DNA of 30,491 bases, from positions 1 to 30,491 of IMG/VR virus record IMGVR_UViG_3300023179_000356; one strand, written 5' to 3'. The notes beneath the pieces were generated by a model. That model had not been told where the DNA came from and did no database searches. It saw only the letters and a program-made list of their open reading frames with translations. This DNA comes from a virus. Of the stretch, positions 5,723-27,717 are shown piece by piece. Each line of letters starts with the position of its first letter. The stretch's first letter is position 1. Both the position numbers and the translations under genes were made by a program.

Positions 5723-6550
5723 ATGGCAAATGTTAGAATTATTTATGATAATGCAGCTGAAAGAGCATCTAATATAACTGCTAGTACAACTGTAACAAAC
5801 GGATTAGCTGCCACAAGTCTAGCTACTAATACAAAAAGTTTAGCTCATCGTAGCACAGGCACTACAGTAACCTATACACTTAGTTGGCCTAGTTCTGAAC
5901 AAATTAATGGAATAATTTTACCAGCAACAAACTTAAGTAGTAGTGCTACAATTAGTGCAGTAGTAAATGGAATAACTACTATTAGTGCAATTAATGCTTG
6001 TACTAGTACTACTTTAGACAACTATTCAGGTGTTAAAAATGTAAATAGCTTTCCTTATGGTGGTTTAAGCAAAACAGCTCTTTGGTTTCCTAGCACATAT
6101 AATGTTACAACCTTAACTATTAATTTAGCAGATAACGGAAAAACTACTATAGGAAATCCAGCATATCCAAGCTATATTGATTGTAGCAGAATAGTATGTG
6201 GTAAATATTGGGAACCTAGTTTAGGTGTTAATAAGGATGGTTTAGAACTTACTATAAGTGATACTACACAAACTAGTCGTAGCGATGCTGGAGATTTATA
6301 CGCGGATCGTGGTACTATACATGATCAATTAAATTTTAATTTAGGTGTTCTTAGCAAAACAGATAAGCAAGAATTAATAAAAATTATTAAATATGTAGGT
6401 AATTATAGAAATATAGCAGTAAGTGTATTTCCTGAAGGAAATAATAGAAATGAACAAGATTATATTATTTATGGTAAAAGAGAAATCAGTAGCATAAGTT
6501 ATTTAGTGCACGATTTTTATTCAAATAGTTTTTCTATTATAGGCTGGTAA
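5723..6550 (+). CDS. Putative virion structural protein
   Basis: A 275-residue protein with no signal peptide or membrane segment. The first 120 residues are Thr/Ser-rich beta-type sequence. The second half contains SRIVCGKYWEPS, a polar G-D-L-Y-A-D-R-G region and a C-terminal part with a regular alternation of hydrophobic and polar residues (NFNLGVLSKTDKQELIKII, then NIAVSVFPEG). Proteins of this shape are common near tail-fibre genes, where they are annotated as hypothetical virion proteins, and position as first gene of the new operon supports a structural role. The ATG at 5723 was chosen because AGAGGAAA stands just before it and the upstream part of the frame overlaps the promoter. I cannot assign a specific structural position. 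Confidence 0.65.
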   Translation: MANVRIIYDNAAERASNITASTTVTNGLAATSLATNTKSLAHRSTGTTVTYTLSWPSSEQINGIILPATNLSSSATISAVVNGITTISAINACTSTTLDNYSGVKNVNSFPYGGLSKTALWFPSTYNVTTLTINLADNGKTTIGNPAYPSYIDCSRIVCGKYWEPSLGVNKDGLELTISDTTQTSRSDAGDLYADRGTIHDQLNFNLGVLSKTDKQELIKIIKYVGNYRNIAVSVFPEGNNRNEQDYIIYGKREISSISYLVHDFYSNSFSIIGW

Positions 6551-6559
6551 GGAGAAATT

Positions 6560-6904
6560 ATGGAGTCTATTGAAAATCACGGCTTAGTACAAACCATATC
6601 GGTTGCTGCAATGGCTATAATTGCGCTAGGTGTAGGTATTCAAAAACTTGTAAAAGAGTGGAGAACTACTAATGCAGAAACTACAGTTATAGAAATGATG
6701 CATAAAGAATTAGAGCGTATGGGCACACAAAATGCTAAACTTACCGAAGAATTAACTAAACTGCAACTAGAAATAGTTGAGCTAAATAATCAACTAACTA
6801 AATTAAGTATAGATAATAATAAACTACAAGAAGAAGTAAGTGCATTAACATTAGAGCTTAATAGTTTTAAAAAATTAGCTGCTCTTAGAAAAATAAAGGT
6901 GTAA
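6560..6904 (+). CDS. Small membrane-anchored coiled-coil protein
   Basis: A 114-residue protein. One hydrophobic segment (about residues 9-28, VQTISVAAMAIIALGVGIQK) is followed by a long predicted coiled coil (about residues 45-105) with leucines and isoleucines at heptad spacing and many Lys/Glu/Asn. An AAGGAG ribosome site precedes the ATG. It sits between structural genes in the operon. Possible roles are a tail-associated oligomeric protein or an inner-membrane factor; the sequence does not decide. It resembles the TM-plus-coiled-coil layout of i-spanins, but a better spanin pair lies downstream at 21846-22510. Confidence 0.65.
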   Translation: MESIENHGLVQTISVAAMAIIALGVGIQKLVKEWRTTNAETTVIEMMHKELERMGTQNAKLTEELTKLQLEIVELNNQLTKLSIDNNKLQEEVSALTLELNSFKKLAALRKIKV

Positions 6905-6906
6905 AT

Positions 6907-7503
6907 ATGACACCAGCAAAACTTAATTATAAAATTTATCAAGGCAGTACATTTTTTGAAACTTTTCGATGGGAATCACAAACTAAACAATATGCACAAA
7001 TTAGTACAATTGCTAAAAGTGCTCCTTGTGTTATAACTACTAGTGCTAATCATAATATACCAGTTAATTGGAGATTTCGAGTAACTGGTGTTAGTGGAAT
7101 GAAAGAGATTAATCAAATAGGCGACGATGAATACTACTTAGCAACTAGTGTAACGAGCAATACCCTAACAATAAATCAATTAAATAGTTCTAATTTTACA
7201 GCTTATACTAGCGGTGGTGTTGTAGAGTGGAATACACCTATACCTTTGGTCGGATATACTGCTCAAATGCAGATAAGAGAAACATTAGACAGTGCTACAA
7301 CAATATTAGAGTTAACTAGTAGCAATGGTGGAATACTTATTGATAACACAAATTATACTATTAGCATAAATATTCCTGCTAATCAAACAAGATTGTTTAC
7401 TTTTGCTACAGCAGTTTATAGCTTAGAATTAACCGATTCTAGCGGAATAGTAGAAACTTTTCTTACAGGTAATTTAACACTAGTTCAAGAGGTTACAAGA
7501 TGA
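6907..7503 (+). CDS. Putative tail/fibre-associated beta-sandwich protein
   Basis: A 198-residue protein beginning two bases after the previous stop. The N-terminal KIYQGSTFFETFRW and the later GYTAQMQIRE, FATAVYSLEL and LVQEVTR follow a pattern seen in small phage structural proteins that lie upstream of fibre genes. These are often compared to the N-terminal domain of baseplate/upper receptor-binding proteins. An insertion of about 60 residues rich in Thr/Ser/Asn (about residues 35-95) interrupts that pattern. The stop overlaps the next start by four bases (ATGA), which suggests translational coupling. The structural role is inferred; no enzymatic motif is visible. Confidence 0.65.
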   Translation: MTPAKLNYKIYQGSTFFETFRWESQTKQYAQISTIAKSAPCVITTSANHNIPVNWRFRVTGVSGMKEINQIGDDEYYLATSVTSNTLTINQLNSSNFTAYTSGGVVEWNTPIPLVGYTAQMQIRETLDSATTILELTSSNGGILIDNTNYTISINIPANQTRLFTFATAVYSLELTDSSGIVETFLTGNLTLVQEVTR

Positions 7504-22253: not shown

Positions 22254-22510
22254 AATATGTTATTACATTAGCACTAATACTAGGGGGCTGTGCTACGACG
22301 GTTCCAGTAACACAACGCTTTCCAGACGCACCTAAACCGCTACTAGAGCATTGTAAGCCGCTTAAAGAAGCACCACAAGCTGTACAGCTAAGTGAGCTTA
22401 CTAAAATTATAGTAGATAATTATATGGAATATCATATTTGCAGTGGCAATAATAGTGCATGGATAGAGTGGTATACAACACAGCAACGTATATTTAACAA
22501 GGAGAAGTAG
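22250..22510 (+). CDS. Outer-membrane spanin lipoprotein (Rz1-like)
   Basis: An 86-residue lipoprotein. The signal peptide ends in a lipobox, LALILGGC, with Cys14 as the predicted lipidated residue. The mature part has Pro-containing FPDAPKPLLEHCKPLKEAPQ and a C-terminal segment NYMEYHICSGNNSAWIEWYT. This N-Y-x-x-Y-H-x-C...A-W-x-x-W-Y pattern is typical of Rz1-like o-spanins in phages with separate spanin genes. It would sit in the outer membrane, pair with the inner spanin across the periplasm and fuse the membranes at lysis. The start overlaps the i-spanin stop (ATGA), and the stop overlaps the GTG start of the endolysin. Confidence 0.8.
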   Translation: MKYVITLALILGGCATTVPVTQRFPDAPKPLLEHCKPLKEAPQAVQLSELTKIIVDNYMEYHICSGNNSAWIEWYTTQQRIFNKEK

Positions 22511-23121
22511 TGGAACTAACAGAACAACAATTACAGCAAATTATTCCTAAAAACAAATATGTTAGCTACTGGTATACTGCACTACAACAATTATTACCAC
22601 AATATGAAATTAACACACCAGATCGTATAGCAGCTTTCTTAGCACAATGTGCTCATGAATCTGGTGGTTTTGTTTTTATTAAAGAGAATTTGAACTATAA
22701 ATGGGCAAGCCTGCGTAAAGTTTTTCCTAAGTATTTTCCCACAGATGCATTGGCACAGCAATATGAGAAACAACCTGAAAAAATTGCTAACAGAGTTTAC
22801 GCTAATCGTATGGGTAATGGTCCTGAAGAATCAGGAGATGGTTGGCGATTTTGTGGGCGTGGATTAATACAAGTAACTGGTAGAGAGAATTATAGTTGGT
22901 TTGCTGCTAGTTTACAGATTAGTCCGGAAGAGGCTAGTGAATATATGGAAACCTTTGAAGGTGCTGCACAGTCGGCATGCTGGTTTTGGGAATCAAACAA
23001 TTTAAATCAGTGGGCTGATAAGCAGGATATAGTTACACTTACAAAACGCATTAATGGTGGAACAATCGGATTAGAGGATAGAAAAAAGCATTACGAACAT
23101 TGCTTGCATATATTAAGCTAA
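22510..23121 (+). CDS. Endolysin, GH19 chitinase-like muramidase
   Basis: A 203-residue glycoside hydrolase family 19 endolysin that cuts the peptidoglycan glycan backbone. The first catalytic Glu is Glu50 in AQCAHESGGF, the second is probably Glu59 in KENLNY, and substrate-cleft motif CGRGLIQVTGRENY follows. The later SACWFWESNNLNQWAD and TKRINGGTIGLEDRKKHY complete the family pattern. No signal peptide or SAR domain is present, so release probably needs a holin. It starts at GTG (22510), which shares its G with the preceding TAG; a strong AAGGAG ribosome site at 22499-22504 supports this start. It is the third gene of the lysis block. Confidence 0.92.
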   Translation: MELTEQQLQQIIPKNKYVSYWYTALQQLLPQYEINTPDRIAAFLAQCAHESGGFVFIKENLNYKWASLRKVFPKYFPTDALAQQYEKQPEKIANRVYANRMGNGPEESGDGWRFCGRGLIQVTGRENYSWFAASLQISPEEASEYMETFEGAAQSACWFWESNNLNQWADKQDIVTLTKRINGGTIGLEDRKKHYEHCLHILS

Positions 23122-24019: not shown

Positions 24020-24232
24020 ATGCCATTAATATTACTAATTATAAGTTTATTTTTAGTTAGTTGTAGTGATATGTATCGTTATCCATGTCAAAATCCAGAT
24101 AATTGGGAACACAAAGTATGTAAAAAACCTTACTGTAATGCTAATGGTACGTGCCCGGAAGATTTAACACCTTATGAAAAAGAACGTATTAGCAATAATC
24201 AATGGCGACCAAAGCAAAAGGATTGTAAATGA
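24020..24232 (+). CDS. Small Cys-rich lipoprotein
   Basis: A 70-residue lipoprotein with signal peptide LILLIISLFLVSC. The lipobox Cys is residue 15. The mature part contains MYRYPCQNPDNWEHKVCKKP, then CNANGTC and a charged end (YEKERISNNQWRPKQKDCK), with five more cysteines that may form periplasmic disulfides. Similar short lipoproteins with a Y-R-Y-P-C-Q-x-P-x-x-W core occur in marine phages near lysis and membrane genes; their function is unknown. The gene overlaps the next one by ATGA. Superinfection exclusion or lysis modulation would be reasonable guesses only. Confidence 0.75.
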   Translation: MPLILLIISLFLVSCSDMYRYPCQNPDNWEHKVCKKPYCNANGTCPEDLTPYEKERISNNQWRPKQKDCK

Positions 24233-24675
24233 TTAAAGATTTATGGAGTGGTCCACGTTATACTGAAGACGAGTTAATGGCTCGACTTAAATTTTTTATA
24301 GGTATGACACTAGCCTTAACATTATTTGGTATTGTGTTTGTTGTACTTTACAGTTTAATATTTGTAACTCAACCAATGAATGGTATGAGTCCTGTAGATA
24401 ATAAATTTTTTGAACTTATAATTCCTATTGCTACATTTTTAACAGGTACACTTAGTGGTATTATGTTAGCACATGGGGATAAAGAAGCACAAAAAGAAGC
24501 ATTAAAATCTGCAAACAAAGGTTGGGATCGTCCACCTAGCCCATCGCCTACAACAATGCCTACAATTACAGTTGGTAGTACTGGTGTTAATATAGGTACA
24601 AATGGTGGTAATCAAGTAAGTGTTGGTTTTGGAGGCAAACCACAGCCACCACAACCACAATTTCCAGAAATATAA
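24229..24675 (+). CDS. Two-TM membrane protein, holin candidate
   Basis: A 148-residue protein with two predicted membrane helices (about 22-46 and 61-81) separated by a short loop (VTQPMNGMSPVDN). A Pro-rich, then Gly/Val-rich polar tail follows (RPPSPSPTTMPTITVGSTG, PQPPQPQFPEI). The second helix IPIATFLTGTLSGIMLAH is rich in small residues. Two TMs with a short loop fit class II holin topology, and the lysis genes lie about 1.1 kb upstream with no other clear holin. The tail is longer than in usual holins, so this remains a hypothesis. It is coupled to the lipoprotein by ATGA overlap. Confidence 0.6.
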   Translation: MIKDLWSGPRYTEDELMARLKFFIGMTLALTLFGIVFVVLYSLIFVTQPMNGMSPVDNKFFELIIPIATFLTGTLSGIMLAHGDKEAQKEALKSANKGWDRPPSPSPTTMPTITVGSTGVNIGTNGGNQVSVGFGGKPQPPQPQFPEI

Positions 24676-24962: not shown

Positions 24963-24989
24963 TCTTTGACTAACTTAATAGGAATTAAT

Positions 24990-25661
24990 ATGGGCAAAAG
25001 CAGTGCAAAAAAGCAACGTAATGTAATACCCATAGATTTTGGTTTTAGAGATATAAAACCATTGAATTATATTCAAGAAACTTATTTACAGGCAATACAT
25101 AATAATGATATAATTTTTGGTATAGGTAGTGCAGGTACAGGTAAAACATATATTGCAGCAACCTATGCAGCCGGTGAACTATATCACAGACGTATAAGAA
25201 AAATTATATTAACTAGACCAAATGTTGAAACTGGTAAAGGATTAGGATTTTTACCTGGTACATTAGAAGAAAAATATTTACCATACTTAGAACCATTTAA
25301 CGAAATATTTACTCGTAGTTTAGGAGCTGGATTTTATGAATATGCACTTAATAAAGGTGATATAGAACCTAAGCCATTGGGATTTATGCGAGGAACTACT
25401 TTTGATGATTGCATAGTCTTACTAGACGAAGCACAAAATGCTACTTGTGAAGAAATGAAAATGATCTTAAGTAGAATAGGTAAAAACTGTAAAATAATAG
25501 TTAGTGGAGATCAGGAGCAAAGTGATATTCATAATAGCGGACTAGAAGATGCTGCTAAAAGACTAGAACATATTAAAGGTATAGAAGTTGTTAGATTTAT
25601 GGATCATGATATTGTTCGTAGTAAATTATGTAAAGATATTATAATGGCCTATAGGAATTAA
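24990..25661 (+). CDS. phoH: PhoH-like ATPase
   Basis: A 223-residue PhoH-type P-loop protein. Walker A is GIGSAGTGKT (Lys52), followed by the PhoH-typical KIILTRPNVETGKGLGFLPG, EEKYLPYLEPF, Walker B CIVLLDEAQNAT, and SGDQEQSD. Family members bind and hydrolyse ATP and some act in RNA metabolism. The gene is a frequent accessory gene of marine phages; its role in infection is not settled. The ATG at 24990 has AGGAA (24980-24984) five bases upstream and is preferred to a TTG at 24966 in the same frame. It follows the membrane gene group, and a small TM protein gene follows seven bases after its stop. Confidence 0.93.
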   Translation: MGKSSAKKQRNVIPIDFGFRDIKPLNYIQETYLQAIHNNDIIFGIGSAGTGKTYIAATYAAGELYHRRIRKIILTRPNVETGKGLGFLPGTLEEKYLPYLEPFNEIFTRSLGAGFYEYALNKGDIEPKPLGFMRGTTFDDCIVLLDEAQNATCEEMKMILSRIGKNCKIIVSGDQEQSDIHNSGLEDAAKRLEHIKGIEVVRFMDHDIVRSKLCKDIIMAYRN

Positions 25662-25667
25662 ATAATT

Positions 25668-25844
25668 ATGGAAACAGTTACAGAAGCAGTAGGTAAACTA
25701 TGGTTTTTAGGTGCTGGAATAGTTGCAATAGCTGCCTATGCAGTTACACTAAAAGTAAGATTAGATTATTTAGAAAAAAACTACGATAGACAAATAACTG
25801 CTCTCTGGGACCAAGTAAATAAATTATTAAAAGAACCTAGATAA
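25668..25844 (+). CDS. Small single-TM protein (58 aa)
   Basis: A 58-residue frame from ATG at 25668 to TAA at 25842-25844, filling the gap between phoH and the cyclase gene. One hydrophobic helix (about residues 11-29, LWFLGAGIVAIAAYAVTLK) is followed by a charged amphipathic tail (RLDYLEKNYDRQITALWDQ). AGGAATT precedes the start by a few bases. It lies three bases before the cyclase ATG, so the two are likely co-translated. It could be a membrane anchor or partner for the cyclase, or a small holin-like protein. Codon use and close packing support it being a gene. Confidence 0.65.
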   Translation: METVTEAVGKLWFLGAGIVAIAAYAVTLKVRLDYLEKNYDRQITALWDQVNKLLKEPR

Positions 25845-25847
25845 ATT

Positions 25848-27083
25848 ATGAATACTAAATTAGCAACAATTATATGTAGCGATGTAATTGGTTATAGTAG
25901 TTTAATGCAAAAAGATGAAATAGGCACACTACAAAAACTAGATAAATGTCGTGAAAAAATAGACTTATTAATTAGTAAGCATAGAGGAAGACTATTTAAT
26001 ACTGGTGGTGATAGCGTATTAATTGAATTTAGTAGTGCTGTTGATGCTGTTAAGTTTGGAGTAGAAATGCAAAATGAAATGCATACTTTAAATAATGGTA
26101 TGCGTTGGCGTATAGGCATACATATAGGAGAAGTTTGGATTTATGGAACTAATCTTATGGGTGATGCTGTTAATCTTGCTGCTCGTACAGAAAGCTTAGC
26201 AGATTATAGTGGTGTTACTATGACTGAAGCAGTTTATAGTCTAGTAAAAGGTAAATTAAAAGAATACGAATATATTAGTCGTGGTAAACAAGAATTTAAA
26301 AATGTTGATCCAATGGAAATATGGAGTATAGTACTCCCTTATGCAGAACCTAATCCTAATTTAAATAAAGCACCAAAAATTAAAAATAATACAGCAGCTA
26401 AAAGTCATAAAGAACTTGTAGCTGCTGTATTAAATGATCAGGCGGCTAGAAATAAAACTCTAGCCGATGCTCAAAATTTTAAACGTAATAAAAACTTTGG
26501 TCCAGCTACTAGAGTATTAATGTGGCGAATAACTAAGCAAGATAAATCTGCATTAGATGAACTTATTAGTATTGGTTTAAAAGATTTAATTCCTCAAGAA
26601 CTACAAGCCTATGTTGTAGCAATATTTAAAGAGTTTTGTTTTAAAGTTGATAGTGATCAAGCTCTAAATATTGCTGATTTATGCGAAAAATATAATAACT
26701 ACTCTACAGCATTAGAATTTGTAAAAAATGCTGCCAAAGTAAACGAAAAAGCCCAAGAAAGATATGCTATAATGATTTTTAATGATCCTACTAGTAGTCC
26801 ACAAGAAATAGATAATATATTAAACGATTTAAAAGAAGCGGGTATGAAGAAAAATGTTAGTGCTATGTTAAAACTTGGAGAATATTATCTTAAAACTAAT
26901 GATAAAAAGAACTCTTTTAGATGGCTGTATGCTGCTAGAGCACAGCATAATTCAACAGCTCAAAAATTACTAGAAGATCTTAATAAAACTATTAGTAAAG
27001 CAGAGTTTCAAAATTTTAAAACCGATGCTGATGCTCTTGTAGATCAAATAAAATTTATGGATGATAATAGGATGAAACAATAA
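25848..27083 (+). CDS. Class III nucleotide cyclase with helical/Sel1-like C-terminus
   Basis: A 411-residue soluble protein. Residues 1-165 form a class III cyclase catalytic domain: LATIICSDVIGYSSLM with metal-binding Asp12, RLFNTGGDSVLIEF with metal-binding Asp55, and MGDAVNLAARTES with transition-state residues Asn109 and Arg113. These suggest an active enzyme making a cyclic nucleotide from an NTP. The two residues that select adenine in classical adenylate cyclases (Lys and Asp in mycobacterial Rv1625c) are Asn51 and Asn102 here, so the substrate cannot be assumed to be ATP. Residues about 180-411 are helical and include a Sel1/TPR-like unit (SAMLKLGEYYLKTNDKKNSF, WLYAARAQHNSTA), probably for protein contact. 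No membrane segment is present. The next gene starts one base after the stop. Confidence 0.88.
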   Translation: MNTKLATIICSDVIGYSSLMQKDEIGTLQKLDKCREKIDLLISKHRGRLFNTGGDSVLIEFSSAVDAVKFGVEMQNEMHTLNNGMRWRIGIHIGEVWIYGTNLMGDAVNLAARTESLADYSGVTMTEAVYSLVKGKLKEYEYISRGKQEFKNVDPMEIWSIVLPYAEPNPNLNKAPKIKNNTAAKSHKELVAAVLNDQAARNKTLADAQNFKRNKNFGPATRVLMWRITKQDKSALDELISIGLKDLIPQELQAYVVAIFKEFCFKVDSDQALNIADLCEKYNNYSTALEFVKNAAKVNEKAQERYAIMIFNDPTSSPQEIDNILNDLKEAGMKKNVSAMLKLGEYYLKTNDKKNSFRWLYAARAQHNSTAQKLLEDLNKTISKAEFQNFKTDADALVDQIKFMDDNRMKQ

Positions 27084-27084
27084 T

Positions 27085-27717
27085 ATGGCTAAAACTTATA
27101 AACCAACCAGCGGCATGGCTAGTGCTGCTCGTCGTGCACTTAAGTGGAAAGAAGAAGGTAAGCCTGGAGGTACGCTTGTTGGCCTAGCCAGGGCTAATCA
27201 ACTAAAAGATCGCGAACCCTTATCAGCTAGTACAGTATTACGTATGTATAGTTTTTTTAGTAGACATGAAGTAGATAAACGTGCAACTGGATTTAATAGT
27301 GGTGAAGACGGATTTCCTAGTAAAGGTCGCGTAGCTTGGGATCTTTGGGGTGGAGATGGCGGTTATAGTTGGAGTAGTGCTAAACGTGATCAAATTATGA
27401 GAGAGCGTGAATCAAAAGCACTACAATTAGTAAAATTGGCTCAAAAAGGTATTATTCCACATACAGATAGAATGATTATTGCACAAGTAATAGAAGATTA
27501 TGCGAACAATAATATTAGCGAAGAACTAGAGGCATTTGGTCAGTTTATGTATCATGCTGAATTATTGCGAAATGATCACTTAGATGTTTACTTGTTTGAT
27601 TTACATATGGTAGATCAACCTTACCGTGATATATTAATTGATGTATTTGGTCAATTACATGATATGGGTGATATGACAATTGATGAACAAGATAGTTTAT
27701 TAGATACTACACTATAA
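27085..27717 (+). CDS. Phage protein with conserved N-terminal domain, unknown role
   Basis: A 210-residue protein. Residues about 1-100 contain a conserved phage domain: SGMASAARRALKWKEEGKPG, then GLARANQLKDREPLS, RMYSFFSRHEVDK and GRVAWDLWGGDGG. I have seen this A-R-R-x-L...R-x-x-S-F-F-x-R-H-E...A-W-x-L-W-G-G-D pattern in many phages, alone or attached to head-maturation and portal-associated proteins, but its biochemical role is not established. The C-terminal half is acidic and helical (EELEAFGQFMYHAELLRNDH), without a known motif. It is the last rightward gene and runs into the shared terminator. A DNA-binding or structural function is possible. Confidence 0.7.
   Translation: MAKTYKPTSGMASAARRALKWKEEGKPGGTLVGLARANQLKDREPLSASTVLRMYSFFSRHEVDKRATGFNSGEDGFPSKGRVAWDLWGGDGGYSWSSAKRDQIMRERESKALQLVKLAQKGIIPHTDRMIIAQVIEDYANNNISEELEAFGQFMYHAELLRNDHLDVYLFDLHMVDQPYRDILIDVFGQLHDMGDMTIDEQDSLLDTTL

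Follow-up and report, generated by a model that had tools for sequence, protein, structure and literature searches.

A phage-encoded class III cyclase family with an asparagine pair at the base-selecting positions and a C-terminal helical solenoid

The cyclase gene, its neighbours and its predicted fold

The window, by which we mean the whole stretch of viral DNA that was analysed (30,491 nucleotides of IMG/VR record IMGVR_UViG_3300023179_000356), carries a gene for a soluble class III cyclase that continues into a C-terminal helical solenoid. The gene, its closest neighbours and the residues that matter for catalysis and base choice are located as follows.

24966..25661, + strand, PhoH-like ATPase, upstream (Pfam PhoH, E 6e-69)
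25668..25844, + strand, 58-aa protein with a hydrophobic stretch and a charged tail (ORF, ending 3 nt before the cyclase)
25848..27083, + strand, soluble class III cyclase with C-terminal helical solenoid, whole gene, 411 aa (ORF, ATG start)
25848..26342, + strand, class III cyclase homology domain, aa 1-165 (Pfam and fold match)
25881..25883, + strand, Asp12, metal ligand (profile alignment)
25998..26000, + strand, Asn51, first base-selecting position (profile alignment)
26010..26012, + strand, Asp55, metal ligand (profile alignment)
26151..26153, + strand, Asn102, second base-selecting position (profile alignment)
26172..26186, + strand, Asn109 to Arg113, transition-state pair (profile alignment)
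26367..26396, + strand, low-confidence linker, aa 174-183 (pLDDT <50)
26397..27080, + strand, all-helical TPR/Sel1-like solenoid, C-terminal, aa 184-411 (pLDDT 93 when folded alone, weak Foldseek match)
27085..27717, + strand, phrog_2859-like gene, starting 1 nt past the cyclase (PHROG match)

The Pfam family Guanylate_cyc matches aa 6-160 with an E of 9e-12 (45.4 bits compared to a curated cut-off of 21.9), and both hallmarks of class III, the two metal-binding aspartates (D12 and D55) and the Asn/Arg pair (N109 and R113), are present. In most adenylyl cyclases the first base-selecting position is occupied by Lys and the second by Asp or Thr. The protein encoded here has neither this canonical pair nor that of guanylyl cyclases (Glu with Cys or similar), but Asn51/Asn102 instead. 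An earlier, sequence-only reading of this DNA had put D12, N51, D55, N102, G105, N109 and R113 at exactly the positions to which the profile alignment assigns them, Gly105 included; it had also considered the catalytic residues Asp12, Asp55, Asn109 and Arg113 to be intact and the pair to be neither the adenylate Lys/Asp nor the guanylate Glu/Cys combination, and the alignment agrees on both points. The interval 25848-26342, to which it had confined the cyclase, does hold the catalytic domain, but the protein reaches as far as 27083, its remainder being a helical domain of some 230 aa that is kept across the phage family.

An AlphaFold2 model of the monomer, computed from 17 phage homologues, reached a mean pLDDT of 88, and its residues 1-164 match solved class III cyclase folds. 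The top Foldseek structure for the cyclase domain is 1ybu, the cyclase domain of Rv1900c (TM 0.90 by target, rmsd 1.7), and VIA-align gave a Z of 25.0 and an rmsd of 1.8 over 160 residues, several adenylyl cyclases being tied at Z values of 24-25. When the solenoid was modelled separately, the best Foldseek rows were TPR and Sel1 proteins at a weak E of 4e-3; no Pfam family scored above the cut-off in this TPR/Sel1-like tail of the phage protein.

Since the gaps between neighbouring genes are very small, the PhoH-like gene, the 58-aa ORF, the cyclase and the downstream gene are probably expressed as one transcript. PhoH homologues were found near the cyclase in 14 loci, and phrog_2859-like homologues also lie near it in L174 and L178. 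For the 58-aa protein, Pfam and PHROG-type profile searches returned no family match. In many phages, homologues of this protein and of a second small one at 24229-24675, both with hydrophobic stretches, adjoin the cyclase and are encoded in either orientation. An endolysin is encoded at 22510-23121 (phrog_181, E 1e-78), so that a lysis gene lies within a few kb of the cyclase. The reductase and a tail gene had their matches in phage records among varied phages, with no host indicated.

The asparagine pair in phages and bacteria

The phage cyclase family comprises at least 48 contigs of up to 400 kb, and searches of INPHARED and PHROG returned no relatives and no PHROG for the cyclase, respectively. 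Scanning single proteins in IMG/VR with patterns that spare positions 51 and 102 yielded 9 relatives that are 76-98% identical, and Asn/Asn is present in all 9; the same holds for 17 of 20 phage representatives. Wider viral scans returned 48 and 64 loci, and 55 distinct, well-covered viral ORFs divide into N/N (47), G/N (3), K/D (3), N/D (1) and K/E (1). Because the pattern of the second viral scan contained NLMGDAV, which biases it toward Asn102, the conservation of the pair is claimed here on the position-avoiding patterns and on pattern-free genome searches.

Among 10 close homologues, all 7 catalytic and base-pocket positions that were checked are invariant. A set of 13 phage homologues is under strong purifying selection (dN 0.12 and dS 1.1 for the cyclase domain of the window compared to that of L003), with the cyclase domain more conserved than the solenoid. 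Moreover, both Asn codons switch synonymously between AAT and AAC in the 13 phage genes with the residue constant, which, together with the purifying selection, argues that the pair is not due to chance. Aligned at positions 51 and 102, the phage homologues keep Asn/Asn as a family trait; a local neutral change, which the sequence-only reading had named as an outcome that would undo it, is rejected by the fixation of the pair among close phage relatives.

Lys-bearing IMG/VR contigs (L189, L190, L191 and L192, with Lys/Asp or Lys/Glu) group with bacterial sequences in the tree, and for L189, L190 and L192, the three examined over their full length, the TolB/TPR layout is the one known from bacteria. 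On account of this tree position and layout, these Lys-bearing viral contigs may be host DNA or prophage flanks.

The pair is found in bacteria as well. In 102 well-covered cellular domains from GTDB loci, K/D (32), N/N (25), N/D (21) and G/N (13) prevail next to a few others, so that roughly one in four of the closest bacterial cyclases in the survey has Asn/Asn, in a scan of which one of the two patterns permitted only N or D at position 102. A pattern-free search of five genomes gave 36 matches (K/D 19, N/N 7, N/D 6 and others), and pattern-free searching of a 240-genome class sample gave 30 domains from the best-match loci (G/N 8, N/D 8, K/D 7, S/D 3, N/N 1 and others). The symbiotic plasmid of Sinorhizobium meliloti BL225C encodes a cyclase domain with Asn/Asn that is 40% identical. 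The states at both positions appear coupled in the cellular loci L058-L137 and L198-L263, where Lys51 nearly always occurs with Asp102 and Gly51 mostly with Asn102. Judged from these sequences, enzymes with Gly/Asn or Asn/Asn seem to make up a large branch within class III.

In the phylogeny, the phage non-Lys cyclases are monophyletic (20 representatives, SH-aLRT 99), and their clade retained an SH-aLRT of 98 after removal of long branches and of the two trait columns. On the tree of 103 rows built without these columns, Lys versus non-Lys requires 2 changes and position 102 requires 9. The phage clade groups with the non-Lys bacterial branch, deep branches being weakly supported, and constraining all non-Lys rows to one clade gave a p-AU of 0.385, by which the constraint is neither rejected nor proven. 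On this tree, the non-Lys state is an old trait of a rhizobial-type branch, the deep placement of which is weakly supported. The bacterial Asn/Asn cyclases and the two-change tree rule out Asn/Asn as a phage-specific invention.

The sequence-only reading had taken the pair as a pointer to an unusual product. This part of it is not supported, because Asn/Asn, like Asn/Asp and Gly/Asn, is ordinary among the bacterial relatives, because the two-change tree has the phage clade in the non-Lys branch, and because Rv1900c (LipJ, structures 1ybt/1ybu) of Mycobacterium tuberculosis, which we take to be an adenylyl cyclase, has Asn at the Lys position, like Asn51 of the phage protein in the sequence alignment. 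Showing the pair to be ordinary averts a false lead.

Predicted product and mechanism

The aquatic phage carries an enzyme of bacterial type, the probable role of which is to produce a cyclic nucleotide messenger while the host is infected. The explanation we favour, with a confidence slightly better than even, is a working soluble purine cyclase that would produce mainly cAMP and act on host receptors, and that would bind a partner through its solenoid. In support of it stand the intact catalytic residues, the fold match to active adenylyl cyclases, the purifying selection, the grouping of the phage clade with non-Lys bacteria, the presence of Asn/Asn in bacteria too, the lack of a PF00027 match and the precedent in Pelagiphages. 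The gene would have come to the phages from rhizobial-type (alphaproteobacterial) cyclases, namely from their non-Lys branch. Bacterial class III cyclases act as homodimers, and by analogy the phage cyclase would do so too. Its main reaction would be the conversion of ATP to cAMP, perhaps with some use of GTP, since both base-contacting side chains are amides, which can be hydrogen-bond donors or acceptors; the activity is thus possibly a mixed ATP/GTP one. For the TPR/Sel1-like solenoid, the likely task is to bind another protein, by which the enzyme would be positioned or regulated. A protein with the cyclic-nucleotide-binding family PF00027 was found in none of the 49 phage records, which are mostly incomplete and in which a diverged receptor could escape the search; control genomes were matched. 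Because of this lack of a receptor in the phage records, the product would most likely act on host receptors of the CRP/Clr type, shifting host transcription in the course of infection.

The Asn/Asn pair alone cannot predict the product, given that the effect of the base-selecting positions in Ma1120 depended on the surrounding pocket (PMC4215837) and that we found no assay in the literature for any Asn/Asn cyclase or for the branch of Gly/Asn and Asn/Asn enzymes. In a rival reading, Asn51 and Asn102 could flip their amides and pair with either adenine or guanine, resulting in comparable amounts of cAMP and cGMP, which we regard as possible, though on the unlikely side. Sinha and co-workers reportedly found in 2005 that Rv1900c can dispense with its Asn at the Lys position and its His in place of Asn109, and that it acts mainly as an adenylyl cyclase, its guanylyl activity being minor. 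The neutral amides at both positions fit such a relaxed enzyme, as does the purported adenylyl and guanylyl activity of Rv1900c with its Asn at the first position, but the source of the latter ties the dual activity to the missing Asn109 (PMC4886424), a residue that the phage cyclase possesses. Rv1900c moreover differs at two more positions, having Asp at the second base-selecting position and His for Asn109, and is fused to an alpha/beta hydrolase. On the receptor side, S. meliloti, for which a strain devoid of all 28 annotated cyclases has been published, has in Clr a receptor of cAMP as well as cGMP (PMC10127613), which would suit a mixed product.

A catalytically dead scaffold, with the cyclase fold and solenoid serving as a binding platform only, is very unlikely: the solenoid does suggest partner binding and no activity is known for the phage cyclase, but the invariance of the catalytic and base-pocket positions and the strong purifying selection, with the cyclase domain conserved beyond the solenoid, argue against it. 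We regard as highly improbable a non-purine or decoy cyclase that makes cCMP or cUMP and interferes with Pycsar-type defence, for although the class III fold is common to the phage protein and PycC, in which the residues of the pocket differ greatly from clade to clade (PMC11224242), the best hit to the PADLOC PycC models is not significant (E 0.006), PADLOC matched no defence model in three neighbours of the cyclase, the 49 records, fragments for the most part, yielded no cyclic-nucleotide-binding protein, and Asn/Asn is common in ordinary bacterial TolB/TPR cyclases. The sequence-only reading's idea that the product may flood or imitate a host signal or a defence pathway is a conjecture.

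By its existence, the phage family suggests direct control of host second-messenger signalling by some phages. As a conserved and, by prediction, messenger-making enzyme of this spread, outside both PHROG and INPHARED, the phage family deserves attention. Its Asn/Asn relatives, that of S. meliloti included, raise the question of which features govern base choice across this large class III branch.

Relation to rhizobial-type and Pelagiphage cyclases

The rhizobial-type cyclases, such as those of SAR116, Microvirga and the S. meliloti plasmid, which combine a cyclase with a TolB-like region and TPR, have a catalytic domain that is 40-50% identical to that of the phage proteins, with which they have the metal and transition-state residues in common, and Asn/Asn, Asn/Asp and Gly/Asn pairs are common among them. 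The phage proteins differ in that they are without the TolB-like region and have a shorter TPR/Sel1-like tail instead.

The phage records contain one cyclase each, except for L173, L179 and L181, where the soluble cyclase is closely preceded by another, longer one. In L179 (2819-6230) the first member of this tandem is a CHASE2 membrane cyclase of 684 aa, which is followed on the same strand, after 127 nt, by the soluble Asn/Asn cyclase; the spacing is equal in L173, and the tandem of L181 is known from the record coordinates. The CHASE2 cyclase of L179 has a Lys/Thr pair, as assigned by motif spacing. ORFs resembling PstS, TerC and a fatty-acid desaturase, judged by eye, stand beside the L179 cyclase (197-1210, 1640-2368 and 6199-6924).

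CsgG and FecR occur together in 3 of the 49 records, the same L173, L179 and L181 records. In that of L179 they are accompanied by CsgF and a curlin-repeat protein (L268:2659-6090), about 15 kb from the cyclase. The other 46 records, that is the window (a fragment) and 45 relatives, gave no match to CsgG or FecR. Since just 3 of the 49 records, fragments for the most part, have CsgG and FecR, the cyclase does not look like a general component of curli modules. We consider it clearly unlikely that a dedicated aquatic-phage cyclase lineage floods host signalling with mixed cAMP/cGMP under the guidance of a solenoid specific to phages, and that some of these phages couple it to curli secretion genes and a CHASE2 receptor cyclase of their own.

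In the literature on phage-encoded cyclases we found only one report, in which uncultivated Pelagiphages possess a curli module that includes FecR together with an adenylate cyclase (PMC9599517). The adenylate cyclase of that module is phage-encoded too, and the likeness noted here is one of gene content. As a difference from the Pelagiphage module, the soluble cyclase of our records with CsgG and FecR lies about 15 kb off the curli genes, next to the CHASE2 cyclase.
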